A stretch of DNA of 64,000 bases from Bacteroidales bacterium (GTDB lineage Bacteria > Bacteroidota > Bacteroidia > Bacteroidales > P3), in the NCBI GenBank assembly GCA_017480225.1, contig JAFVBB010000018.1, positions 1 through 64,000 of the forward strand, in the 5' to 3' direction. A program made the position numbers and the translations under genes. Every line of letters begins with the position of its first letter. The stretch's first letter is position 1. Positions 2,744-23,709 of the stretch are shown here, piece after piece. A model generated the notes under the pieces. It was not told the DNA's origin, made no database searches, and was given only the letters and a program-made list of their open reading frames with translations.

Positions 2744-2965
2744 TTAAAGAGATTTGACTGCCGTGTATAGGTCTTGCCCAATCGTTCCGAAATCAGATTT
2801 CAGCGCCGCCATGTCTGCGGCATACTCCGTCTCAGATGTGTTAAAAGTGTAGTAGCCCGAAAATATGCTCACCAAGCTACCTACACCAAGCAGGAATGAT
2901 GACTTCGCGAACAGAAAATCTGTTCTGCAACCCGATTTCTTCATTATGTCAGTATTGTTGTTCAT
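2744..2965 (-). CDS. Small membrane-associated phage protein
   Basis: 73 residues starting MNNNTDIMKK, with one hydrophobic stretch in the middle (SSFLLGVGSLVSIFSGYY). An ATG ten codons further upstream exists, but it lies inside the promoter motif at 2983-2990, so the internal ATG at 2965 is chosen. It is the first gene of the DUF2335 unit and ends 13 bases before the next start. I do not recognise the family. Confidence 0.55.
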   Translation of the reverse strand: MNNNTDIMKKSGCRTDFLFAKSSFLLGVGSLVSIFSGYYTFNTSETEYAADMAALKSDFGTIGQDLYTAVKSL

Positions 2966-2982
2966 TGTGATATATCTGTTTG

Positions 2983-2990
2983 CAAAAGTA
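2983..2990 (-). promoter_or_regulatory. Bacteroidota -7 promoter element
   Basis: On the minus strand the sequence reads TACTTTTG, matching TAnnTTTG, 18 bases before the ATG at 2965. It would drive the small membrane protein / DUF2335 unit independently of the upstream portal transcript, which ends at the terminator at 3196-3217. Confidence 0.6.
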
Positions 2991-3184
2991 CGCATTTTTT
3001 TTTATTCGTCAATTATTTTATTAAAATTTTATGCAACAATTCTGTATCTACATAATAATCAGTATTATCCGATTGGTGATATCAACAAGTTCGTCTCCGT
3101 AAACCTTACGCTATTCACCAAGATGCACTTCCGAAACATAATAAATTTATTATCAAACGCCCGAGCGAAGATAATGTTTCGATG

Positions 3185-3217
3185 ATGCAAAAGAGGGCTG
3201 CCGGCGTACCGACAGCC
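3185..3217 (-). terminator. Rho-independent terminator after the portal operon
   Basis: On the minus strand a 9-bp stem (GGCTGTCGG / CCGGCAGCC, one G-U pair) closed by a TACG loop is followed by CTCTTTTG. It lies about 30 bases after the stop of the 63-residue protein and would end the long leftward phage transcript. Confidence 0.65.
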
Positions 3218-3245
3218 CCGGGATAAATGAAAGAAAACTGAATTG

Positions 3246-3437
3246 TCATTTACGTTGAAACTGGCCATTCACACATTGCTTATCGAGGAACTGGCTCCAC
3301 TTCTCATACGGACACCTGCACAGGAATGGCTTGCGTGGCTCATAATTGGTCAGTTCATGGTAGTCGTAGGAGTGCTTGCACTCACAACACTTGCCGTGAG
3401 GGGCAGAAATTGGCTGTTTGAGAGGCTTGCGTGCCAT
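3246..3437 (-). CDS. Small cysteine-rich phage protein
   Basis: 63 residues with five cysteines, including HGKCCECKHSYDYHE and FLCRCPYEKW, which could coordinate zinc. It follows the portal gene by 11 bases and precedes the operon terminator, so it is probably co-transcribed with terminase and portal. The family is not recognised. Short Cys-rich proteins at this position may be head-assembly accessories or simple DNA/RNA-binding knuckles; neither can be shown here. Confidence 0.55.
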   Translation of the reverse strand: MARKPLKQPISAPHGKCCECKHSYDYHELTNYEPRKPFLCRCPYEKWSQFLDKQCVNGQFQRK

Positions 3438-3448
3438 GGGTGGTGAGT

Positions 3449-4900
3449 TTATAGGGTTGGTTCAAAAACATCCCTTACAGAGGCTGATTTACGCCGTTCA
3501 TCCTCTTTGTTTTTCTCTTCATTGATGCGCTCCATTTCCTTTTCTGCATTGTCGATGAGTGGCGACTGCTCCAGCAGGGTCTGCAGCGACATACCACCTT
3601 GGCCGAACTGTTTCATCAGACGCTCAACAACTGCGGCCACATCCTCTCCGAATGGCGGTTGGAACTTATGGGTGATATGAAGCTCCTCATAGCTGCCACT
3701 CTTCATGTCGAGTACGTTGCCCATGATAGACTTCATCAGATTGCTGGTACGCGAGAGGTAGTTGTCATGAGACTCCTTGCGCATGTCGGCCTTGATGGTG
3801 CCGAGCATCATCACATGCTCCAGCGTTGTACCAGAGGCGTTGGCAAGGCCACGCAGGTCCTCGATTGTGATGTTTGGCGTGAACGATTTGCTCATTGCTT
3901 GCTCGTCGAGAGCATCAATCTCATCCTGACGCGCCTGGTTTGCGTTTTGGCGTTCAAGATATTTGACATCACCACCATTCTTCAAGACGTAGAGTTTGCT
4001 TTCCTCTTCCTGCTTGGGCAGAGTGTTGGCAATCTCTGACGTTGCCACCAGTGCAGGGTCTGCAAAGTTGTCGTTGCTGTCAGCATTGCGAGAATAGGCA
4101 TCTTCAATACGGTCGATGATGGTCTGTGTACCATCCCATTCCACGTCTTGAATGAACACGATGACTGGTATCTTTTTGACGAAGTTGGTTTGCCTATCCA
4201 CTTCCCACGCGCCACCATTGACGCTTTTGCAATAGTAGATAAACTCTTTCGTGTAGACGTCGTAGTGGTAAACAGAACGTCTCTCGGCATCGAGAGTGGT
4301 GTAACCTCTGGCGAAGACCGTAAGGCGGTCGAACTGGTCAAATAATGTGTAGATGTCGTCGTTCTTACTCTTGGCCAGCACGCGAATGAGCATCTTCGCC
4401 TCGCCGTCCTCTTGGTAGGTATGGAACAGCATGGCGGAACAACCCTCGCATCCAGCAAAGCGCTTGGCCTCTCGCAGGTGGGCGTCAAAGTGGCTTTTTC
4501 CCAACTGGTCTGTGAGGCGCTTGAACTTCTCTTCCAGTTCGGCACTGTCCTGTGAAGCGTTGTTCCAAATCACCGGCTTTCCGTACATGAATACCAACGC
4601 TATCTCGTTGATGAACTTGTGGTAGGGAATGGCGATTCGGTTCACGTCTTTGTTGCGAATGAAGTTTCCCCTTTTGTCGTAGATGGCCTTTGCTGGGCGT
4701 TTCATTACCTTGTGGGTGTCGGTGTTGTACAACAGCAGGTTTTCTATGGCCTTGGTTGAGCGGTTTTCAAGCATACCGATGGCTCTGGGTATGTCTTTGT
4801 TGTCGAGCAGCTCCGAAAAGGTCTGCTGGTAGCCGATGGCGGCATTGATTTCGTTGGTAACTACACCAAAAATCCTTTTGATTGCATCTTTGAGTGGCAT
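3449..4900 (-). CDS. Phage portal protein (SPP1 gp6-like)
   Basis: 483 residues, the usual size of SPP1-type portals, which form the dodecameric ring at the head vertex through which DNA is packaged. Position directly downstream of terminase large subunit (4-base gap) and the overall portal pattern support this: N-terminal IPYHKFINEIA-type core, stem region, and a low-complexity charged C-terminus with an NEEKNKEDERRKS stretch. No single catalytic motif exists in this family, so the call leans on length, synteny and sequence character. Confidence 0.85.
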   Translation of the reverse strand: MPLKDAIKRIFGVVTNEINAAIGYQQTFSELLDNKDIPRAIGMLENRSTKAIENLLLYNTDTHKVMKRPAKAIYDKRGNFIRNKDVNRIAIPYHKFINEIALVFMYGKPVIWNNASQDSAELEEKFKRLTDQLGKSHFDAHLREAKRFAGCEGCSAMLFHTYQEDGEAKMLIRVLAKSKNDDIYTLFDQFDRLTVFARGYTTLDAERRSVYHYDVYTKEFIYYCKSVNGGAWEVDRQTNFVKKIPVIVFIQDVEWDGTQTIIDRIEDAYSRNADSNDNFADPALVATSEIANTLPKQEEESKLYVLKNGGDVKYLERQNANQARQDEIDALDEQAMSKSFTPNITIEDLRGLANASGTTLEHVMMLGTIKADMRKESHDNYLSRTSNLMKSIMGNVLDMKSGSYEELHITHKFQPPFGEDVAAVVERLMKQFGQGGMSLQTLLEQSPLIDNAEKEMERINEEKNKEDERRKSASVRDVFEPTL

Positions 4901-4904
4901 TGTG

Positions 4905-6359
4905 TTAAAGTATTAAATTTGACAAACGTTTTTCTAAATCATCTGGCAGGGCCACGTCCACATAGTCAAAGTAGCAGCGCATGAGCATTGCATCACGCCA
5001 GTCCGGGCTGTGGCCGATATCCTCTTTTATCTCTGCCTTTGGTTTGAGTTGCAGGCGGCCATCGCTGTCGCCGTTCCATGTCTGGAGCTGCTCAATCTCC
5101 AGCACGATATTCTCTTTCTCTTCCTCTGACACCAATTCAAGCTCAAATCCCACGTCGCTGTTGTTGATGTGCTCGGCAAGGCGGTAGCCGCATTGGGTCT
5201 GTAGGTTCATATAGTTCTCTGCCGTATATTCTGTCGGCTCCAGCAGGGGTGAGCCATTGTTTCGGAAGCCTATACAGCCAGTATGGTCTACAACACCTCC
5301 TCCAACGCCATCTTCGTCAGCAATGCAGCGAGAAGAGGGTATATGATAGAGCCTTTGGAAATGGAGAATACACTGCTCTATCTCTGTTGTCGAGGAGGTG
5401 TCGAAAGACCGTAAATCCACAACCGTGTAGCCATTCCATACGAGTATGATAGCCCGGTCTGATCCAAAGCGGGCAATGTCGGCAGTCAGATAGTAGTTGC
5501 CGTTGCGTATGGAGATTTTATTGCCGAATATGGCACAGATGTCGTCATACTGGCAGAGCGCATTTGGATTGTCTTCATAATCCCAATTACCCTTTAGCAG
5601 ACGTTCTTTCTTCACCTTATCTCCAATCTCGCGCAGCTTCTCGATGTAACCGCTATCAATGAATGGATTTTCTTGTACCAGGCACGGCATATAGCATTTC
5701 TTGGCATCCAGGATGCCTTTCTTCCACGGCTCATAGAAGATGCGGAACATCCAGTTCTTTTTGGGGTTGCAAGTAACGAACAGTTTGCCATGAATACCAT
5801 AGACATCATTCATCTGTCGGTTGATACGAGTGCGTAGGGTATCATAGGCATCAAAGCATACCTCGCCGGCCTCTTCTATCCAGCCGCTGGTGTATTCGAT
5901 GGAGCCGAGTGTTTCAAAGAATGGGTCGCTGGGCTTGCGCTCCAGAGCCACAAAGTCAATACGAGAGCCATTGTAGAATTGAAAGTAATTGTATCCGCCG
6001 TTGAAGTGATAGAGGGTGTCTGGTATCTCATACGCTTTCATGACCTTGTGGAATGTGGGTAGAGTGGACTCCATCAAACGTTTCAATACAGCACGGCCAA
6101 CGAAGTATCGGGTTTCGGGATATGCAAGTGCCATGAACAGCTCCCATGATGCACCAGTCCACGACTTGGCACCGCCGGCAGCTCCGCCATAGAGGAATTC
6201 CGAATGCTCGTTGTCAATGAGTATTTGAAGAGCGGACTCTTGTTTCTCGTGCTTCTTATCCTCTCGCACGGTAATAAAGTCGAACATACCACGCTTGAAC
6301 GCTTCCACTTTTATGGAAACGTCCAATGGCACTTCCGCTTTCCAAATTCTCGAACCCAT
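4905..6359 (-). CDS. Phage terminase large subunit
   Basis: 484 residues. This is the ATP-driven DNA packaging motor with a C-terminal nuclease. The Walker A-type loop GGAAGGAKS is at residues 58-66, SGWIEEAGEV is a good Walker B / catalytic Glu candidate, and TCNPKKNW fits the coupling motif. In the C-terminal half LTADIARFGSD is the first acidic nuclease motif of the RNase H-like fold, with DEDGVGGGVVDH as the second. It lies 6 bases after the small subunit and 4 bases before the portal, a classic packaging-module order. Confidence 0.92.
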   Translation of the reverse strand: MGSRIWKAEVPLDVSIKVEAFKRGMFDFITVREDKKHEKQESALQILIDNEHSEFLYGGAAGGAKSWTGASWELFMALAYPETRYFVGRAVLKRLMESTLPTFHKVMKAYEIPDTLYHFNGGYNYFQFYNGSRIDFVALERKPSDPFFETLGSIEYTSGWIEEAGEVCFDAYDTLRTRINRQMNDVYGIHGKLFVTCNPKKNWMFRIFYEPWKKGILDAKKCYMPCLVQENPFIDSGYIEKLREIGDKVKKERLLKGNWDYEDNPNALCQYDDICAIFGNKISIRNGNYYLTADIARFGSDRAIILVWNGYTVVDLRSFDTSSTTEIEQCILHFQRLYHIPSSRCIADEDGVGGGVVDHTGCIGFRNNGSPLLEPTEYTAENYMNLQTQCGYRLAEHINNSDVGFELELVSEEEKENIVLEIEQLQTWNGDSDGRLQLKPKAEIKEDIGHSPDWRDAMLMRCYFDYVDVALPDDLEKRLSNLIL

Positions 6360-6365
6360 GGTAGG

Positions 6366-6782
6366 TTACTTCTTTTTGGCTTTCTTTAACAGAGCCATCA
6401 TTGTCGCCAGTTCACTATTGGATAGACTGGAGAGGTCGAGGTCGTTGGTCTGTTTTAGCTCCACTTCCTCGCCCTCGGTATAACCACGTTTCTTGCCCTT
6501 GGTTTTTAGGTGGAATATAATAGCCGTCAAATTGGCATCCTTAATCTGCTCCATCAACTTGCTCTCGGTGAAGTCAATCAATGACTCCTCGACCTCTTTC
6601 ATCATGGCATCCAGCTTTGGGTCGTTCTGTCGCCATTCATAGAGGGTTGTGCGACTACAGCCAAGGGCAATGGCTGTTGCTGACATATTGGCCGCTTTCT
6701 TGGAATACACGTCAACTATGACGGAGACCTTCGGCTTTTTCTTCGTCGCTTTTTTTACATGTCCATTCTGTAAGTCACTCAT
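6366..6782 (-). CDS. Phage terminase small subunit
   Basis: 138 residues from the ATG at 6782; an in-frame ATG three codons earlier would overlap the preceding stop. An N-terminal helix-turn-helix (SATAIALGCSRTTLYEWRQN) is followed by an oligomerisation helix and a KGKKRGYTE segment typical of small terminase subunits that recognise packaging DNA. It directly precedes the large subunit. The upstream neighbour is the dehydrogenase-like gene with only one base between, so the putative modification cassette and the packaging genes are probably on one mRNA. Confidence 0.82.
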   Translation of the reverse strand: MSDLQNGHVKKATKKKPKVSVIVDVYSKKAANMSATAIALGCSRTTLYEWRQNDPKLDAMMKEVEESLIDFTESKLMEQIKDANLTAIIFHLKTKGKKRGYTEGEEVELKQTNDLDLSSLSNSELATMMALLKKAKKK

Positions 6783-6783
6783 C

Positions 6784-7983
6784 TTATGCAAGGTATTGGT
6801 TTAGGTAATCATATTTTGCTGACAATCTGCCATTAACGAACATTGTCGCCGACTGCAATTCCTCTGACAGAGAAAAACCGCCACCGAAAACCACATCCTT
6901 TACCATGTCGGAAAAGCTCTCGCTGGCTTCCTTTGCTAAAGCGTTTGGCAAATTGTCCACGGCCATCACTGAAATATTATCCCTGTTCTGGAACAAAGGA
7001 ACCTCATTCAACGAGTGGTCCACATCATAGAATGGCATGGCGTGGGTGGAGTAGCGTGTGGTCGTGGCAACACTGCCTTTCACGTCGCAGGTGATGTCAC
7101 CCACAACGCGAATACGATTGCTGTTGCCTTTGACCAGCCTCTCGTCAAGATACACCGGAGCGCCGTTCTGATAGCAATGACAGCAGAGCAAAATGTCGGT
7201 TACTTCGGCATATGGGAAGAAACGGCTGGAGAAACGCTCGGGATTGGCGTGGAATGTGGTAGGGTTGAAGTTGTAGCCATAGGTGTCAAAGGTGAGGTCA
7301 GCGGCCCCGACGATGCTATAGCAGGTTTCTTCGTTTACCATGAACTTAAATTTGCACGCCGGGACGTATTCAATGCCGATGGTGTTGAGAACTTCGCGAG
7401 TGCCAGATGCTACTCGTCCATATCCAATGACGAGGATCTTCACCTTTCTCTCCTTGATGGTAGCTGACACCTTGGCGAGGTTATCGAATATCATCTGCTT
7501 GGTGAAAGTCTCATCCAGCTTGGGTAAATTGTAGCACCCATACTTTTCACCGTAGAGACGCAGGGTGTCGTATGTCCCGGCAATGCCAGCCCAATAGCCA
7601 AAGGCGATCTTGCGCCGACCTTTGTTGTCTTTGATGAGTTCGTAGTCGGTGAATGTGATATGTTTCCCTTTGAGGGCCTCGAATAACTCTTTATTGTAGG
7701 GCGGTTTTTCGTCAAGGTGGCCGAAGAAGAAATAGTGTTTGTTAGGGAAGATAGAGGTTGTAGATGGCTCTTTAACGCCAAATATGATGTCGCAATCGGA
7801 GAGGTCGTTTGACACGGTTGCCCCACACGACAAAAACTCGCTATCGGGTATGATGCGAGTACTGCTGGGCTGTACGACAAACGATAGCGATGGGTCGGCA
7901 GCGAGTAGGCTACTGATTGTCCGAGGGGTCAACGGTGTCCGGCTCTCCAGACTTCTTGTTTCTCTTACTATTCCTATTCTCAT
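6784..7983 (-). CDS. Saccharopine dehydrogenase / lysine-ketoglutarate reductase-like enzyme encoded by the phage
   Basis: 399 residues. The N-terminus (MRIGIVRETRS, then SRTPLTP) is the alanine dehydrogenase / PNT N-terminal fold, and FGVKEPS, HYFFFGHL, FTDYELI and AFGYWAGIAGTYD match the lysine-ketoglutarate reductase / saccharopine dehydrogenase (L-lysine-forming) branch. A Rossmann segment KILVIGYGRVASG follows near the middle. Known family members reversibly condense lysine and 2-oxoglutarate with NAD(P)H; the substrate here is unknown. The start at 7983 fits the family N-terminus better than an ATG seven codons upstream. The first 74 bases overlap the end of the ParB-like gene in another frame. 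Its place between ParB/amidoligase genes and terminase is odd for a metabolic enzyme and suggests it makes a small molecule for DNA or protein modification. Confidence 0.75.
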   Translation of the reverse strand: MRIGIVRETRSLESRTPLTPRTISSLLAADPSLSFVVQPSSTRIIPDSEFLSCGATVSNDLSDCDIIFGVKEPSTTSIFPNKHYFFFGHLDEKPPYNKELFEALKGKHITFTDYELIKDNKGRRKIAFGYWAGIAGTYDTLRLYGEKYGCYNLPKLDETFTKQMIFDNLAKVSATIKERKVKILVIGYGRVASGTREVLNTIGIEYVPACKFKFMVNEETCYSIVGAADLTFDTYGYNFNPTTFHANPERFSSRFFPYAEVTDILLCCHCYQNGAPVYLDERLVKGNSNRIRVVGDITCDVKGSVATTTRYSTHAMPFYDVDHSLNEVPLFQNRDNISVMAVDNLPNALAKEASESFSDMVKDVVFGGGFSLSEELQSATMFVNGRLSAKYDYLNQYLA

Positions 7984-8656
7984 CGTCAAGTGCTTTTTTG
8001 GCAAGTTCGAGCAGTTTCTGAAATCTTGTGCTGGTGGACTTGATTTGATACTTGCGCTCTATGGCCTTCATCATCTTCAAATACTCCTCCTCGTTCTCGT
8101 TGGCGTCGGCGAGGATAACCATGTCATGCGAAGCGGTCTGTGCGTCGATGATGCCCAATAGCTCTTCCAGCAGGGCTTTCTCCTTTTTGTAGAACACCAG
8201 CGAGACGGAGTATTGTTCCTGCTCCACACCGAAGCCAACGTTGTCAATGGCGATTGGGGTGATTTCGTTGATGTCGATGTTGGCAAACTCCTTGAACTCG
8301 ATCGACTGGATTTGCTCAAAGAGGCGTTTGAGGATGCCTTTGTCATCCTCACCGTGGAGAGAGTTGTGCGATGTCTGCAAGGCGATCAGCTCGTCATGTG
8401 TCATTTCTTCTTCGTTGGCATAGATGACAGGAACCGTCTTGTAGCGGAGTTGCACGGCAGCACGGTAGCGGTGGTGTCCGCTGAATATCTGGTACACGTC
8501 GCCTTTCTTGACACAACCGATGGCAGAACTCAACCCGCCACTGATTTTGATATTCTCAACGAGGCGGTTGAAGTAGGCATCCGTCATCACATTGGCATTA
8601 AGATCCGACTCCTGGAGCTTCTCTATTGGTACTTCTGCTAATTTCCATTTAGCCAT
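7910..8656 (-). CDS. ParB-like (ParB/Srx fold) phage protein
   Basis: 248 residues. The N-terminal domain has the ParB/sulfiredoxin fold signature: VPIEKLQESDLNANVM, then YQIFSGHHRYRAAVQL near residue 55-70, where GHHRYRAA corresponds to the nucleotide-binding box of ParB-type proteins. The C-terminal 90 residues are charged and helical and end in a disordered tail. Stand-alone ParB-like domains in phages act as CTPase switches or nucleases and often accompany DNA-modification genes. It overlaps the start of the dehydrogenase gene by 74 bases and the stop of the amidoligase gene by 8 bases, so translation of the three is coupled. There is no ParA partner, arguing against a partition role. Confidence 0.8.
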   Translation of the reverse strand: MAKWKLAEVPIEKLQESDLNANVMTDAYFNRLVENIKISGGLSSAIGCVKKGDVYQIFSGHHRYRAAVQLRYKTVPVIYANEEEMTHDELIALQTSHNSLHGEDDKGILKRLFEQIQSIEFKEFANIDINEITPIAIDNVGFGVEQEQYSVSLVFYKKEKALLEELLGIIDAQTASHDMVILADANENEEEYLKMMKAIERKYQIKSTSTRFQKLLELAKKALDDENRNSKRNKKSGEPDTVDPSDNQ

Positions 8657-10706
8657 TTTTCTGACTGCGTTTTAATGATTGTTGATACTGGTTGATTATT
8701 TCTTCGTTATCAGTTATTTGACCGAGGTTTGTAACATACATAAGATAATCCTCATATATGTCCTTTTCTTTCCACTTGCTTTTGTCAAATTTGGTGAACT
8801 GCCCCCGGTACTTCATCGAAACCGGGGCATGAGTGTAGACCTTGGTGTAAATGTAGGAGATATAGCGTCCTGTGGCTCTCGAAATAGTCCGCTGGACTTG
8901 CTTGGACTTAATGCACATGAGAATGAGTTTGCTGAGGCGCGGGACTGCATTGTTGGTGCAAAAGTCCGAGAGAAGCCATAGGTCGAAGTCTACAATCTTG
9001 GAGTAGTCAAAGCCAAATCCACCGAGGACGTCGTTCTCATAGAACACCAGGAAGCCGAACTTGCAGAGCGACACCTTGCGTACTTTCTTGATGTAGCGTT
9101 GCTGGAAATAGCGGAGCTGGGATGGCGATACTTGAACGATTTTCAGTTTGCCGGGGTCAATGATTTGCAGATTGTCTTTTGGCTCTGTATAGCTGATGAG
9201 GTCTGCACTCTCTTGATGGTATTCAATGCGGTTTTTCTTCACCCCCTTGGTGGTATAGAGTACCTTGACACCACTCTTGGCGAGTTTGTTCATGTGGAGG
9301 TACTGGTTCGTACTCATCATGAATAAATCCGTGCCGTCTGGCAGGTCTTCTTCTACATGATTGTAGTAGGTGGTGAGGTCGGTGAACGTCAGCGAATAGT
9401 CGCTGTTTTTGCGGAGCTTGGTGATGGTGGAGTGGTTTTTCTTGTAGCTGTCGAACTGAAAGAAAACATCGCCACCGTCTTTCAAGGCATCGTTGAGAGT
9501 GCCAAGCTTGTACTGGCACCCATGGAGGAACTTCACCAGCTTCCCGGCATACTCCTTGGCTTCTTTCAGAGTTTCTGCGAACGAGTCTTTGATGCTCTCC
9601 AGTTGCTGTCGGTAGTATTCTTGCTCTCGGAAGTTATTTTTGATGCTATGGAATATCAGTAACAGGGCCAGCTGGTCTACCACACTGTCGCCATTGTAGT
9701 CTTCCAGAAAGGCTGCATACTCCCGATAGTGGAGTTTCAGCTGGCCAGTGGCCATGAGGTACACAGCATGGTTAAATTCATCGTTGTTATAGACAGTGAT
9801 TTTCTTATACTTACTCAACTTAATTTCCGTGTTGTAGAGCTTCGGATTGACACAGGAAATGGTGTCGCCAGTATTCTCCACAAGCACAGAGAAAAAGTTG
9901 CTCGTTAGGTCAATGTGTGGATGAATGTAGATGTCTTTATTTTGGTCTTCAACATTCGCATAGTAGATTAAAGGGGGTGGGCAAATTGGGAGGCTTAGAG
10001 GGGCTTTTATGAGGCTTGCAAAGTCCTCAATGGTCTGGATTTGCTTGAAGTCCTCTTCGGTGTGGGTGATGGCATACTGCACAAAGCGGTAAGAGAACAT
10101 CACGCAGTTCACCATTTCCTCAAAGTTGGTTGTGGAGTTGAAGCACCTAAATTCCACCGTCTTGCGCTTGAAATACGAGGCGATATTAACGATGCAGCGG
10201 TCATATCCCTTGCAGCTGTTGTTCTCAAACACTCTCTCGATGCCTCGGAAGTCGGTGGCCGCTTTGACACCCACATACTTTTCCAACGTTGGGCTGGGGC
10301 GATAGATTTGCAGGTCGGAGTATTCCGGCGTTTGGCATATCACTTTCAGCAGTCCACTGGTGTAATAGCTCAGATAAAAGATGTTTTTGACTTCCTCAAC
10401 AGTGAGGTCGCCAATATAGATGTGGACCTGCAGGGCAAGGTCGCGGATAGCCTGGGCGCTATGTAGACGTGCGCTTTCAATGAACGCCTTTAGCTTGGCA
10501 AAATCCGCATGGCACAGGTGCATCGGAACCGTGTTCAGTTCGCCACCGATAGGAACTGTCTTGCGCCCTTCGCTCATGTCTGTGTTCTGAACAATCTCAT
10601 CTTTATCCCACACAAAACCATCGGGCATATCCACAGCCTCGCGGACAACATCAGCAAGCTCCCATTCGATACCGAACGTTCTTTTGGTTATTGCTATCTC
10701 ACTCAT
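8649..10706 (-). CDS. Amidoligase fused to a putative Mom-like GNAT domain
   Basis: 685 residues. The N-terminal third carries the hallmarks of the COOH-NH2 amidoligase family related to glutamine synthetase: FGIEWEL near residue 11, GGELNTVP near 54, LQVHIYIGD near 93 and KTVEFRCFNST near 190. Such enzymes join a carboxylate to an amine using ATP. The middle is a long helical linker. The last roughly 150 residues (KFGFLVFYENDVLGGFGF, WLLSDFC, PRLSKLILMC, MKYRGQF) resemble the acetyltransferase-fold family that includes the Mom DNA-modification protein of phage Mu; this part is a pattern judgement. The gene sits 2 bases after DUF488 and overlaps the ParB-like gene. An amidoligase joined to a Mom-like transferase would suit adding an amino-acid-like group to a DNA base. 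Confidence 0.7.
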   Translation of the reverse strand: MSEIAITKRTFGIEWELADVVREAVDMPDGFVWDKDEIVQNTDMSEGRKTVPIGGELNTVPMHLCHADFAKLKAFIESARLHSAQAIRDLALQVHIYIGDLTVEEVKNIFYLSYYTSGLLKVICQTPEYSDLQIYRPSPTLEKYVGVKAATDFRGIERVFENNSCKGYDRCIVNIASYFKRKTVEFRCFNSTTNFEEMVNCVMFSYRFVQYAITHTEEDFKQIQTIEDFASLIKAPLSLPICPPPLIYYANVEDQNKDIYIHPHIDLTSNFFSVLVENTGDTISCVNPKLYNTEIKLSKYKKITVYNNDEFNHAVYLMATGQLKLHYREYAAFLEDYNGDSVVDQLALLLIFHSIKNNFREQEYYRQQLESIKDSFAETLKEAKEYAGKLVKFLHGCQYKLGTLNDALKDGGDVFFQFDSYKKNHSTITKLRKNSDYSLTFTDLTTYYNHVEEDLPDGTDLFMMSTNQYLHMNKLAKSGVKVLYTTKGVKKNRIEYHQESADLISYTEPKDNLQIIDPGKLKIVQVSPSQLRYFQQRYIKKVRKVSLCKFGFLVFYENDVLGGFGFDYSKIVDFDLWLLSDFCTNNAVPRLSKLILMCIKSKQVQRTISRATGRYISYIYTKVYTHAPVSMKYRGQFTKFDKSKWKEKDIYEDYLMYVTNLGQITDNEEIINQYQQSLKRSQKNG

Positions 10707-10708
10707 GG

Positions 10709-11110
10709 CTAATCGAATAAGGATGTTTGAGTGGGTTTAGGTGCAGGGGCTGGAGCCTCATACTCTCTGATGTTCAGCCCAAGTTCCTTGTTAAGAAAAT
10801 CGGCCAGCAGATGGCGGTGGCAAAAGTCGCCAGGCTTTTCATAGCACAGCAGGGCTACATTGCGGCCATGGGCGATTGAATTTATCTCGTTGATGATGCT
10901 GGCGGCTCCACGCTTGCGCAGTATCTCATCGTAGAGTTCAAGGTATTCTTCATGCTCACAATCGTCCGACAGCATATATCGTGTAGGAGCGACGGAGTAC
11001 ATACAAACTCCCTCATAGAAGCGAGGCTTCCACCGTGCAATTCCGATAGGCATTATGCCAGCAGTTCCGAGGCGTTTGATGTTTCCGAAATAAGACGTGT
11101 ATATCTCCAT
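10709..11110 (-). CDS. DUF488 family protein
   Basis: 133 residues. The family signature is clear: N-terminal IYTSYFGNIKRL, and near the C-terminus LLCYEKPGDFCHRHLLADFL with the conserved Cys, Glu and two His residues. The function of DUF488 is not established. It is the first gene of the block DUF488, amidoligase-GNAT, ParB-like, saccharopine-dehydrogenase-like, with 2 bases before the next start. An 83-base AT-rich gap upstream could hold its promoter. The C-terminal tail is proline-rich and ends in TSLFD. Confidence 0.8.
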   Translation of the reverse strand: MEIYTSYFGNIKRLGTAGIMPIGIARWKPRFYEGVCMYSVAPTRYMLSDDCEHEEYLELYDEILRKRGAASIINEINSIAHGRNVALLCYEKPGDFCHRHLLADFLNKELGLNIREYEAPAPAPKPTQTSLFD

Positions 11111-11141
11111 TTTTTAAGTGTGTATATAGTACAATAACGAT

Positions 11142-11168
11142 AAAATGTATAATATATTGTTCAGCAAA
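11142..11168 (-). promoter_or_regulatory. Weak candidate promoter for the DUF488-to-portal transcript
   Basis: On the minus strand TTTG (11165-11168) and TACATTTT (11142-11149) resemble the -33 and -7 elements, but the spacing is about 15 bases rather than about 20 and the last base of the -7 element differs. The surrounding 83 bases are very AT-rich and are the only sizeable gap between 11.2 and 3.2 kb. Confidence 0.25.
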
Positions 11169-11193
11169 TGTTTGTTTGAAACATGCGTGTATA

Positions 11194-11607
11194 TTATACG
11201 GTTTTATTCAGTAATTCTGAGAGTTGGTTTCTTGCAGATTGAACGTCCAGGCCGTCGTCCTCTCCAAGATAATCGACTACTACTTCTCGGAACTGGTCGA
11301 AAGAGCGGACTACCACATATCGGTTGCCAGCTCTCTCGCATTCGACTTGCCAGATCTTCTGTGTTTCGCACTGAATACCCTTGGCGGTTTTCATTTCCAG
11401 GCACATGGCGCCATACCCTTTCCTTGGCACGAGGAGAATGAGGTCGGCAACGCCGGCCATCATTCCCTCTGCTTTGAGGATACGCCCCTGGGTGGCCGTT
11501 GTGGCGACACCGTTCGGGACGGCGAAAAGCAGGTGCGCGTACTTGGGGAACGCAAGCCGGAAGTAGCGGACACAGGACTGCTGGAGTTTGCTCTCATTGT
11601 GTCTCAT
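11194..11607 (-). CDS. VRR-NUC domain nuclease
   Basis: 137 residues, a stand-alone VRR-NUC domain (PD-(D/E)xK fold) common in phage replication modules, thought to act on branched or modified DNA. The active-site pattern is visible: GMMAGVADLILLVPR supplies the Asp, and GAMCLEMKTAKG gives the ExK pair; QKIWQVECERAG is the following family helix. The start ATG overlaps the stop of the preceding variable-domain gene by 4 bases (ATGA). Confidence 0.85.
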   Translation of the reverse strand: MRHNESKLQQSCVRYFRLAFPKYAHLLFAVPNGVATTATQGRILKAEGMMAGVADLILLVPRKGYGAMCLEMKTAKGIQCETQKIWQVECERAGNRYVVVRSFDQFREVVVDYLGEDDGLDVQSARNQLSELLNKTV

Positions 11608-22596: not shown

Positions 22597-23709
22597 ATGG
22601 ACTTTCGAGAAACCATAAGACAGTTTGCTGGGGGAATAGATGGCCTGAAGCTTTGCTGCTCCAATGAGGAGGCAACGAAGCATTCTCTCATCTTGCCCCT
22701 TATCCAGCTACTGGGGTACAATGTCTTTGACCCTACAGAGGTTGTTCCAGAGGTGGATTGCGACATACGGCGTAACGGTGATAGGGTTGATTATGTCATT
22801 CAGCGCCATGGCCATCACCTCATCCTTATCGAGTGTAAGCATTGGGCCAGAGACCTTGATTACTATGTTTCGCAGTTGGGTGGGTATTTCGCTGGGTCGT
22901 TGGCTCGGTTTGGTATTCTGACCAATGGGATAGAATACCGCTTCTACACAGACCTTGATAGAGCCAATTTGATGGACGAAGAGCCTTTCTTGGTTGTGGA
23001 TATGGAGGCACTGACAGATGATGGCTTAGATGGGCTGGACGTATTCCGTAAAGATGTATTTAACGAAAAAGTGATTATGGAAAAAGCAACCGATATGAAG
23101 TGTTTGAACGCGCTACGTGATGAGGTTCGACAAGAACTGGCAGACCCATCTTTTGAGCTGGTCACCCACTTTGCAAGGCGTATATATGGGCAGGTGCCAT
23201 CAAAGAGCGTCAGAGAGCATATGAAACCGCTTCTGTTAAAGGCTATCGATGGTTATTTGCAAACTGCTGAAAACCAGTGTGTTGCCCCCCCCCCCCCAGG
23301 GCGCGAGCCAAAATCGGAAAATCAATACGTTACGGCGCCTACAGACGATGCAGTTCTGGCCATTGTTCGGGAAATCCTCGCAGGGGTCGTTTCGCCAGAG
23401 CGGGTTGGGGTATTTTTTGGGTCGGGGTACAGCTCGATACGGCTTGATGGTAGCCAATGGTGGCCTATAATCAAATTCAAATACACAGAGTATACCAAGT
23501 GGGTCTCTCTCGGAAAATACTGGCCTCAGTCAAATCACTTTTACTGCAACCAGCAAAAAGATAAGACATACATTGACCAAGTAGAAGATGTTAGAGGCTT
23601 TGAAAAAGACATTCGGGATATTGTGAGTGTGATGCTGATTGACGGAGAGGACCAGGACGAGAGGCGCGTGGCGTGGGTGAGGAAAAACAGGCCCGATTGG
23701 TGCGAATAA
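22597..23709 (+). CDS. Type I restriction R-subunit N-terminal-like nuclease with poly-C tract
   Basis: 370 residues from MDFRETIRQF; an in-frame ATG 13 codons earlier lies inside the repressor gene. Residues 20-130 match the HsdR N-terminal PD-(D/E)xK domain: VPEVDCDIRR, then DRVDYVIQ and LILIECKHWARDL give the D-ExK active site. A second domain follows the linker (VGVFFGSGYSSIRLDG, WWPIIKFKYTEY). The linker is encoded by 13 consecutive C residues at 23285-23297. Thirteen keeps the frame open; one base fewer ends translation near 23470 and one base more ends it slightly earlier. Expressed with the repressor, it could be a lysogen-encoded anti-phage function. Confidence 0.7.
   Translation: MDFRETIRQFAGGIDGLKLCCSNEEATKHSLILPLIQLLGYNVFDPTEVVPEVDCDIRRNGDRVDYVIQRHGHHLILIECKHWARDLDYYVSQLGGYFAGSLARFGILTNGIEYRFYTDLDRANLMDEEPFLVVDMEALTDDGLDGLDVFRKDVFNEKVIMEKATDMKCLNALRDEVRQELADPSFELVTHFARRIYGQVPSKSVREHMKPLLLKAIDGYLQTAENQCVAPPPPGREPKSENQYVTAPTDDAVLAIVREILAGVVSPERVGVFFGSGYSSIRLDGSQWWPIIKFKYTEYTKWVSLGKYWPQSNHFYCNQQKDKTYIDQVEDVRGFEKDIRDIVSVMLIDGEDQDERRVAWVRKNRPDWCE
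23285..23297 (+). repeat. Homopolymeric C13 tract inside a coding sequence
   Basis: Thirteen consecutive C between GTTG and AGGGCG in the linker of the HsdR-like gene. Such tracts slip during replication and are a classic contingency switch; here either neighbouring length truncates the protein. Confidence 0.85.

Follow-up and report, generated by a model that had tools for sequence, protein, structure and literature searches.

A conserved phage gene cassette with an amidoligase–GNAT fusion and exchangeable amino-acid enzymes, a candidate system for decoration of phage DNA

We analyzed a stretch of 64,000 nucleotides (the window) from a Bacteroidales bacterium (GenBank assembly GCA_017480225.1, contig JAFVBB010000018.1, positions 1 to 64,000 of the forward strand). 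Four genes on the reverse strand, encoding a DUF488 protein, a large fusion protein, a ParB-like protein and a lysine-ketoglutarate-reductase-like (LKR-like) enzyme, run directly into the genes of the phage packaging machinery (Table 1). The first-pass annotation had described four leftward genes that are separated by 2 bases or overlap and lead into terminase, and the coordinates in the list of open reading frames agree with this description. There are 2 bases between the DUF488 gene and the fusion gene, while the ParB-like gene overlaps the fusion gene by 8 bases and the LKR-like gene by 74 bases. The LKR-like gene starts with ATG, with an alternative TTG upstream at 8004. The ATG of the small terminase is located at 6782, one base after the LKR-like stop, with an alternative TTG at 6791. 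Comparison of the window with a relative, L206, gave dN/dS of 0.04-0.14 for the small terminase and the genes of the cassette; these values, rough since dS was 0.8-1.8, indicate more than a chance occurrence.

Table 1. Cassette genes, domains of the fusion protein and neighbouring genes in the window.
Feature	Position	Strand	Evidence
DUF488 (DUF488-N3a) protein, 133 aa	10709..11110	-	PF22751 1.1e-10; motif C-x7-C-H-R-H
Amidoligase - degenerate methylase-like - GNAT fusion, 685 aa	8649..10706	-	Pfam; family n=47 distinct loci, 45 aligned
Amidoligase_2 match, fusion residues 66-208	10083..10511	-	PF12224 1.5e-6, 28.7 bits (cut-off 22)
DAM-like-phage2 match, fusion residues 266-409	9480..9911	-	PF22556 2e-18; without SAM-site and FPP motif residues
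GNAT-phage-like domain, fusion residues 520-676, motif PVSMKYRG	8679..9149	-	PF22559 8.3e-30
ParB-like protein, 248 aa	7910..8656	-	ParB_N PF02195 3.4e-6, 27.5 (cut-off 26.3); phrog_7405 1.1e-57
Lysine-ketoglutarate-reductase / saccharopine-dehydrogenase-like (LKR-like) enzyme, 399 aa	6784..7983	-	PF05222 (AlaDh_PNT_N) 7.9e-20
Terminase small subunit (neighbour, outside enzyme set)	6366..6782	-	phrog_309 1.5e-8
Terminase large subunit (neighbour)	4905..6359	-	PF04466 1.5e-11
Portal protein (neighbour)	3449..4900	-	PF05133 3.4e-40

Related loci were gathered by the motif [PE]VSMKYR[GN], to which one scan added one further pattern; conservation of this motif is therefore partly built into the sample. 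We took the best 80 of 380, the best 80 of 303 and the best 80 of 125 matches from the respective scans, and all counts of loci given below describe this sample. Scans of viral contigs with single proteins gave no match, and matches were obtained once alignments served as the query. The loci fall into two branches. A-type loci, to which the window belongs, encode the amidoligase–GNAT fusion, and D-type loci encode a transferase without amidoligase. There were 63 A-type loci with a fused open reading frame (64 including L206), which gave 47 distinct loci at 95% identity, and 161 D-type loci, which gave 116 distinct ones. L206, the closest relative of the window, is not counted among the 47, as two open reading frames encode its fusion. 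Nine loci that repeated the window or L042-L044 were excluded.

Conservation of the cassette genes in related phages had been set beforehand as a test of the first-pass reading, and we observed that the gene order was kept. Among the 47 distinct A-type loci listed, the fusion gene was followed by a ParB-like gene and then by the small terminase in every case, and the ParB-like gene lay within 200 bases of it in 45. DUF488 was located upstream of the fusion in 45/47, the remaining two loci end at contig ends, and the full order DUF488, fusion, ParB, small terminase was thus present in 45/47. The order conserved in dozens of other loci rules out chance adjacency of the four genes, which almost certainly form a functional cassette. 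A ParB-like gene was also found near all 116 distinct D-type loci listed (one near-duplicate, L075, had no ParB match). DUF488 was present near 73 of these 116, or 66/88 among those with ample flanking sequence, and was not seen in 43, some of them incomplete. A terminase was recognised with the few models used near just 27/116 of the D-type loci listed, and therefore the link to packaging is weaker for this branch.

The Cys/His motifs reported earlier for the DUF488 protein were recovered both as a profile match and as a CHR motif, which was present in 45/45 A-type and 81/82 D-type DUF488 matches. Residues C89, C97, H98, R99 and H100 were invariant in 22 aligned sequences (of 45). A profile search of PDB with DUF488 gave no match up to E 0.1, and in the 12.4-kb stretch of one record around a Lak megaphage DUF488 no further part of the cassette was found. 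The ParB box was borne out by a ParB_N match above the Pfam cut-off. It was the sole domain detected; a profile search found no helix-turn-helix, and the remainder of the protein had no Pfam match. We rejected its assignment as a ParB of the chromosome-partition type, as TIGR00180 scored 33.4, below the cut-off of 58.45, and the helix-turn-helix was not found; we call it ParB-like only.

The cassette might instead process or cap genome ends or nicks while the DNA is packaged, with DUF488 handling phosphate and no genome-wide modification of bases. The A-type cassette lies directly before terminase, and a 2023 paper of Burroughs and Aravind, whose title links the DUF488 superfamily with nucleic-acid modifications, reportedly has DNA-end processing among its topics. 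However, the amidoligase and the amino-acid enzymes have no obvious role in such chemistry, and the genes gp70-71 of phage Megabear have no annotated terminase within 7 kb on either side. We consider this explanation improbable.

The fusion protein contains the amidoligase motifs noted in the first-pass annotation: Amidoligase_2 scored above the Pfam cut-off, and G12, E14, E16, H95, R170, E185, F186 and R187 (GxExE / H / EFR) were invariant in 45/45 aligned A-type fusions. The C-terminal domain belongs to the GNAT superfamily by its match to GNAT-phage-like. The label of a Mom-type transferase was weakened, and we dropped it as a claim: hhalign of the GNAT domain against a Mom profile gave no match (probability 0.7%), a weak test since the Mom alignment was shallow (26 close sequences, effective number 1.3). 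When PDB was searched with a profile of the fusion, only chance matches came up (best E 0.36). Between amidoligase and GNAT lies a degenerate domain similar to adenine methylases, overlooked in the first pass. Its SAM-site and FPP markers (G164, D190 and P354) were all present in 111/115 D-type proteins and in 0/46 A-type proteins, the window included; with the SAM-motif and (D/F)PP residues never kept together, we rejected the A-type fusion as a DNA adenine methylase. We infer that the SAM site was lost and the amidoligase gained in the A-type branch. This contrast between the branches may reflect one single evolutionary event, and DNA binding by the degenerate domain of the window may also be lost.

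Amidoligases and GNAT enzymes often act on proteins or small molecules. Here they could tag proteins of the phage or the host, for example the terminase, portal or capsid encoded nearby, with an amino acid or peptide. The terminase directly after the A-type cassette is consistent with this, as are free-standing amidoligases in four genomes of the same genus; one of these, whose surroundings were opened, adjoins a class-II glutamine amidotransferase match near an open reading frame of 1422 aa, the size of a tape-measure gene. Against modification of proteins stand the adenine-methylase-like partner domain, with markers intact in nearly all D-type proteins, and the ParB-like gene near every distinct locus listed of both types. 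We regard it as rather unlikely.

Further, genes for amino-acid enzymes were, in this sample, confined to the amidoligase branch, where two fixed positions (slots) hold most of them. At least one was present in 46/47 A-type and 0/116 D-type loci listed; among loci with flanks of 2 kb or more upstream and 2.5 kb or more downstream the counts were 41/41 and 0/88, respectively. An ATP-grasp protein similar to D-Ala–D-Ala ligases was encoded in 25 of the 47 A-type loci listed, an opine dehydrogenase in 18, a racemase-like protein in 16 and the LKR-like enzyme in 9. The closest solved relatives were D-Ala-D-Ala ligase for the ATP-grasp protein (7e-24), a putative ligase, and N-(1-D-carboxylethyl)-L-norvaline dehydrogenase for the opine dehydrogenase (6e-21). 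The motifs that we had guessed for these proteins occurred once each, EIN-x-FPG in 1/26 ATP-grasp matches (the consensus reads DVNL-x-PG) and GSGNVG in 1/18 opine dehydrogenases (the consensus reads GTGNVG). The 286-aa protein is tentatively called racemase-like from weak matches to 3llx (E 0.04) and 4qhr (0.085) and a reading of its motifs, namely RIGE, GGS and a lysine invariant in 16/16; Pfam detected no racemase-type domain in it. The background was low: tblastn of 50,697 phage records with one query each gave 3 matches for the opine dehydrogenase, 2 for ATP-grasp and 0 for the LKR-like enzyme.

The LKR/saccharopine dehydrogenase fold proposed in the first pass held. With a profile of 9 LKR-like proteins, the closest solved relative was the lysine-ketoglutarate-reductase part of human AASS (E 1e-60), matched over nearly the full length (profile positions 7-399). 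Yeast saccharopine dehydrogenase was matched with E 6e-30 over the N-terminal half plus part of the remaining sequence. In both alignments a Lys and a His, which we take to be catalytic residues, were aligned; the His is kept in 9/9 LKR-like proteins and the Lys in 8/9 (Arg in L153). The LKR-like enzyme and the non-homologous opine dehydrogenase were never encoded in one locus; 27/47 A-type loci listed have one of them and 20/47 have neither. Both enzymes are of families that couple amino acids with keto acids, and the opine dehydrogenases of the sister cassettes thus lend independent support to the earlier idea that the dehydrogenase makes a lysine- or opine-like compound.

The LKR-like gene could also be a metabolic moron inserted between ParB and terminase, with the remaining genes as an independent modification module. 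LKR-like matches were found in 38/148 relative genomes, its own included (E 1e-3), while the fusion matched among them its own genome and gave one weak amidoligase match only. The LKR-like protein is therefore a host-type enzyme, which could serve host metabolism, and in the surroundings of two of these matches (L005, L006) no phage gene was recognised. All nine loci with the LKR-like gene group in a single clade, and hence the gene was gained once among the cassettes. On the other hand, it occupies the same slot in 9/9 loci, never alongside any other accessory enzyme, and elsewhere this slot is often filled by another amino-acid enzyme. Moreover, it was retained with fusion proteins only 44-73% identical to that of the window. 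Mere cargo is thus quite improbable in our opinion.

We propose that the cassette of the window is the LKR version of a type widespread in phages, which would decorate the phage's own DNA with an amino-acid-derived group before packaging. The attached group is probably amino-acid-derived and DNA is its rather likely acceptor; the proposal with all its elements together is plausible and is put forward tentatively. The simpler core, as defined by conservation, comprises DUF488, a transferase (SAM-binding adenine-methylase-like domain and GNAT) and a ParB-like protein, with predicted functions. In the window, the LKR-like enzyme would reductively couple an amino acid and a keto acid to a compound of the saccharopine or opine type. 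With ATP, the amidoligase would activate a carboxylate and form an amide, the methylase-derived domain would grip the nucleic acid to be modified, and transfer of the group to an exocyclic amine would fall to the GNAT domain. Through NTP binding, ParB could load or regulate the complex on DNA, and DUF488 might perform a cysteine-based step on phosphate or sulfur. The differing amino-acid enzymes of related viruses suggest different decorations. In a bolder version, which we consider possible but doubtful, an ATP-dependent amidoligase-GNAT protein, having replaced a SAM-dependent ancestor, would equip the DNA bases of Bacteroidota phages with amino-acid conjugates of the opine or peptide type. 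The decorations would vary by swapping, in fixed slots, the LKR-type enzyme, the opine dehydrogenase with the D-Ala-D-Ala-ligase-like protein, or the racemase-like protein, often with a second GNAT.

Several known systems resemble the cassette in part. We know of no GNAT-methylase fusion or amidoligase in the Dnd and Dpd systems, whose chemistry, phosphorothioate and 7-deazaguanine, also differs. The likeness is in the ParB-superfamily partner: two papers describe the ParB-fold proteins DndB and DpdB as partners of DNA-modification enzymes (PMC10853773, PMC12839542). ParB-fold proteins are also described as fused to predicted DNA methyltransferases, with an enrichment of these fusions in prophage regions, and archaea have fusions to DUF488 (PMC12704722). 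Mom of phage Mu is a GNAT-superfamily enzyme that modifies adenine (PMC7824862). The group added by Mom is an amino-acid-like acyl group. The cassette shares with it a phage-encoded enzyme of the GNAT class, and the amino-acid-like acylation of DNA is proposed here by analogy. It differs in that sequence relation to Mom was not detectable in our weak test, and in the fusion of GNAT to methylase-like and amidoligase domains, accompanied by ParB, DUF488 and amino-acid enzymes. The LKR-like enzyme resembles AASS and yeast saccharopine dehydrogenase in sequence, and differs from them in being phage-borne, within a candidate modification cassette. The first-pass annotation knew of no described system with this gene set, but the domains of the core belong to families already named in Pfam (DUF488-N3a, DAM-like-phage1/2, GNAT-phage-like), and the published 2023 prediction for the DUF488 superfamily (Burroughs and Aravind) may already cover this core.

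Hypermodification of phage DNA is rich in new nucleic-acid chemistry and in ways past restriction. Comparative genomics suggests that the chemistry of this cassette is modular, with a single conserved transferase core and interchangeable amino-acid enzymes. The candidate genes are present in cultured phages of Mycobacterium smegmatis and Gordonia (SAM branch) and in cultured Bacteroidota genomes (amidoligase branch).

We analyzed the window's four leftward genes that encode a DUF488 protein, a 685-aa amidoligase/degenerate methylase-like/GNAT fusion, a ParB-like protein and a dehydrogenase resembling lysine-ketoglutarate reductase (LKR). They lie where the first-pass annotation had placed them, and the junctions read from the sequence were a 2-base gap, an 8-base overlap, a 74-base overlap and 1 base before the ATG of the small terminase gene (TerS). 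The large terminase (TerL) and portal genes follow. Ahead of the cassette in this 2.05-Mb genome we found leftward phage genes for an SMC-like ATPase, a RecT-family protein and a weak metallo-beta-lactamase-fold match, with a weak VRR-NUC-like match directly upstream.

Positions of the cassette genes and of other features in the window and in related loci (L numbers)
Locus	Feature	Position (strand)	Match
Window	DUF488	10709-11110 (-)	DUF488-N3a (Pfam)
Window	Fusion	8649-10706 (-)	Pfam: Amidoligase_2 66-208, DAM-like-phage2 266-409, GNAT-phage-like 520-676
Window	ParB-like	7910-8656 (-)	ParB_N (Pfam)
Window	LKR-like dehydrogenase	6784-7983 (-)	AlaDh_PNT_N (Pfam)
Window	C5-cytosine methyltransferase, 528 aa	13440-15026 (-)	PF00145, 8e-30
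Window	Head-morphogenesis-like, 622 aa	19-1887 (+)	PHROG, 1.8e-111 (residues 4-384)
Window	Type I restriction R subunit, N-terminal domain	22597-23706 (+)	HSDR_N, 7e-12
L206	Amidoligase part, GNAT part	7524-8279, 8344-9579	
L045	Free-standing amidoligase region	7532-8473, 6774-7322	
L041	DUF488 relative, Prevotella phage Lak-C1	5998-6396	
L148	DUF4417	10422-11195	~1e-32
L158	DUF4417	5735-6457	~1e-32
L161	Prok-E2_D/ThiF/PcfJ group, example	2857-3564	
L146	Prok-E2_D/ThiF/PcfJ group, example	3621-4460	
L154	Prok-E2_D/ThiF/PcfJ group, example	3313-4476	

Transferases lacking the amidoligase were present in 16 GenBank phage records (8 Mycobacterium, 5 Gordonia, 2 Faecalibacterium, 1 Microbacterium), and searches of GenBank phage records found none of the amidoligase type. 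The ParB-like gene directly followed the GNAT gene in all three phage regions opened; Megabear and Sting had a DUF488 match approximately 1.5 kb upstream, and in the Microbacterium phage ParB was followed by terminase two genes on. Scans of viral and genome contigs confirmed 380, 303 and 125 matches, and the best 80 of each were kept. A first survey placed ParB at most 200 bases away on the same strand for 78 of the 88 GNAT ORFs that had 600 or more bases of downstream sequence; in the other 10 the overlap or gap was longer, the ORF was split, the order was reversed (L043) or ParB gave no match (L075). DUF488 was in the locus for 62/73 GNAT ORFs that had 600 or more bases of upstream sequence, directly upstream in 29 (best 80 per scan). 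The linked gene set proposed at first pass is thus a real and conserved phage cassette, its order recurring in sister loci. A DUF488 relative with 41% identity was also present in the Lak megaphages; beside the Lak-C1 gene, no other cassette part was found in the 12.4-kb stretch opened (translation table 15).

The best 80 matches per scan gave two types of locus. D-type transferases (methylase-like plus GNAT, approximately 440 aa) occupied 116 distinct loci. ParB lay near 116/116 and DUF488 near 73 (among the 88 loci with ample flank, near 66); the few terminase models used picked up terminase near only 27. A-type transferases, the window's branch (approximately 690 aa, with amidoligase and degenerate methylase-like domain), occupied 47, with ParB and TerS in 47/47, DUF488 in 45/47 and TerL in 42/47. 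By name, the 16 A-type genome contigs (L206-L220 and L222) were 14 Bacteroidota, one Candidatus Gallipaludibacter and one Clostridia bin (L209). In the same sample the marker residues of the SAM site and FPP motif occurred all three together in 111/115 D-type vs 0/46 A-type proteins, while amidoligase residues were invariant in the 45 A-type fusions aligned. On one reading, an ATP-dependent step may have replaced a SAM-dependent one in the A-type. Between the window and its closest relative, L206, dN/dS was 0.04-0.06 for DUF488, both fusion parts and ParB; the LKR-like gene reached 0.14 and TerS 0.10. All these ratios are rough at a dS of 0.8-1.8. L206 itself encodes the amidoligase part and the GNAT part separately, in ORFs of different frames, either naturally or through sequence error. 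Free-standing amidoligases of approximately 310 aa were seen in four same-genus genomes (L045, L127, L128, L129, L130); that of L045 adjoins a class-II glutamine amidotransferase match, with a 1422-aa ORF nearby.

Accessory amino-acid enzymes were confined to the A-type branch in this sample. The same models detected them in 46/47 A-type vs 0/116 D-type loci (best 80 per scan), and more divergent enzymes may have escaped these models. With flanks matched (2 kb or more upstream, 2.5 kb or more downstream) the counts were 41/41 vs 0/88. The sole A-type locus without such an enzyme, L173, starts at a contig end. As both types are branches of one family, the contrast may reflect a single evolutionary event.

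Among the A-type loci (best 80 per scan), the ParB-TerS slot held an LKR-like enzyme in 9 and an ATP-grasp protein in 24, with nearest solved relatives among D-Ala-D-Ala ligases (7e-24); one further ATP-grasp gene sits between fusion and ParB. The DUF488-fusion slot held an opine dehydrogenase in 17 (nearest solved relative N-(1-D-carboxylethyl)-L-norvaline dehydrogenase, 6e-21) and a 286-aa protein weakly resembling fold-type III PLP racemases in 16. L164 carries a divergent opine dehydrogenase after TerS (Pfam Octopine_DH, 8e-32). LKR-like and opine dehydrogenases never co-occurred (0/47); 27/47 loci had one of them and 20/47 neither. On a fusion tree of 47 rows, built by a quick method and with flags on some long branches, and with L173 left out and the divergent L164 enzyme scored absent, the LKR-like gene needed 1 change, opine dehydrogenase 2, the 286-aa protein 3 and ATP-grasp 5. 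We therefore trace the window's LKR-like gene to one recruitment event within this set of cassettes.

The racemase-like protein is often accompanied, upstream of the fusion, by a second small GNAT-like protein and/or a CGW(K/H)CC-motif protein (L152, L165, L167, L171, L174, L176, L178, L179, L182, L184). The motif protein was found in 7 of the 16 loci with the racemase-like protein and in none of the other 31 A-type loci. The GNAT-like protein passed the Pfam cut-off in L176 (2e-7) and L182 (7e-6), fell below it in L171 and L174, and had no match in L165. Some 3-4 kb ahead of the fusion are gene families with representatives that match Prok-E2_D, ThiF and PcfJ; each family occurs in 8/47 A-type loci. 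DUF4417 proteins occur in or near two cassettes; excerpts of PMC12704722 report DUF4417 as a ParB-fold fusion.

The window's dehydrogenase profile matched the LKR part of human AASS over nearly its full length (1e-60) and yeast saccharopine dehydrogenase (6e-30); a Lys and a His, which we take to be the catalytic pair, are aligned. We found no match to it in 50,697 phage records, while 38 of 148 relative genomes, its own included, had one; a search of its own genome found no other copy. In these 148 genomes the fusion protein matched only its own genome, apart from one weak amidoligase match. Phage LKR-like proteins fall into a single group that also takes in two genome copies from the same genus (L005, L006), suggesting that the gene came from a host.

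We observed a conserved order, the domain identities, SAM-site residues missing wherever an amidoligase is fused, and amino-acid enzymes confined to that branch within this sample. In the proposed mechanism, the accessory enzymes would make a compound of saccharopine or opine type, or in other clades a dipeptide; the amidoligase would form an amide on this compound, which the GNAT domain would then pass to a target kept in place by the methylase-derived domain. Phage DNA is the likeliest target: the transferase looks like an adenine methylase and is accompanied by a ParB-like protein, and such proteins occur with DNA-modification enzymes elsewhere, according to excerpts of PMC12704722, PMC10853773 and PMC12839542. 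The main rivals are that the cassette modifies protein or performs DNA-end chemistry. The biochemistry suggested at first pass, with phage DNA as its putative target, gained strength from the alternative enzymes of sister phages. Kinship of the GNAT domain with Mom was not detected by profile comparison with a shallow Mom alignment. Full-text literature searches, judged by titles and abstract openings among the matches listed (at most 20 per search, of up to 258 papers), gave no description of this gene set or of interchangeable amino-acid enzymes. Pfam already names families after these phage domains, so the core has probably been noticed before.

Near the cassette lies a C5-cytosine DNA methyltransferase, so 5-methylcytosine might be expected in mass spectrometry. 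On the strand opposite to the cassette, the 622-aa head-morphogenesis-like protein had a top PHROG labelled Bxa ADP-ribosyl transferase and nothing but weak matches in its C-terminal part, and the restriction-subunit domain lies just past the phage genes.
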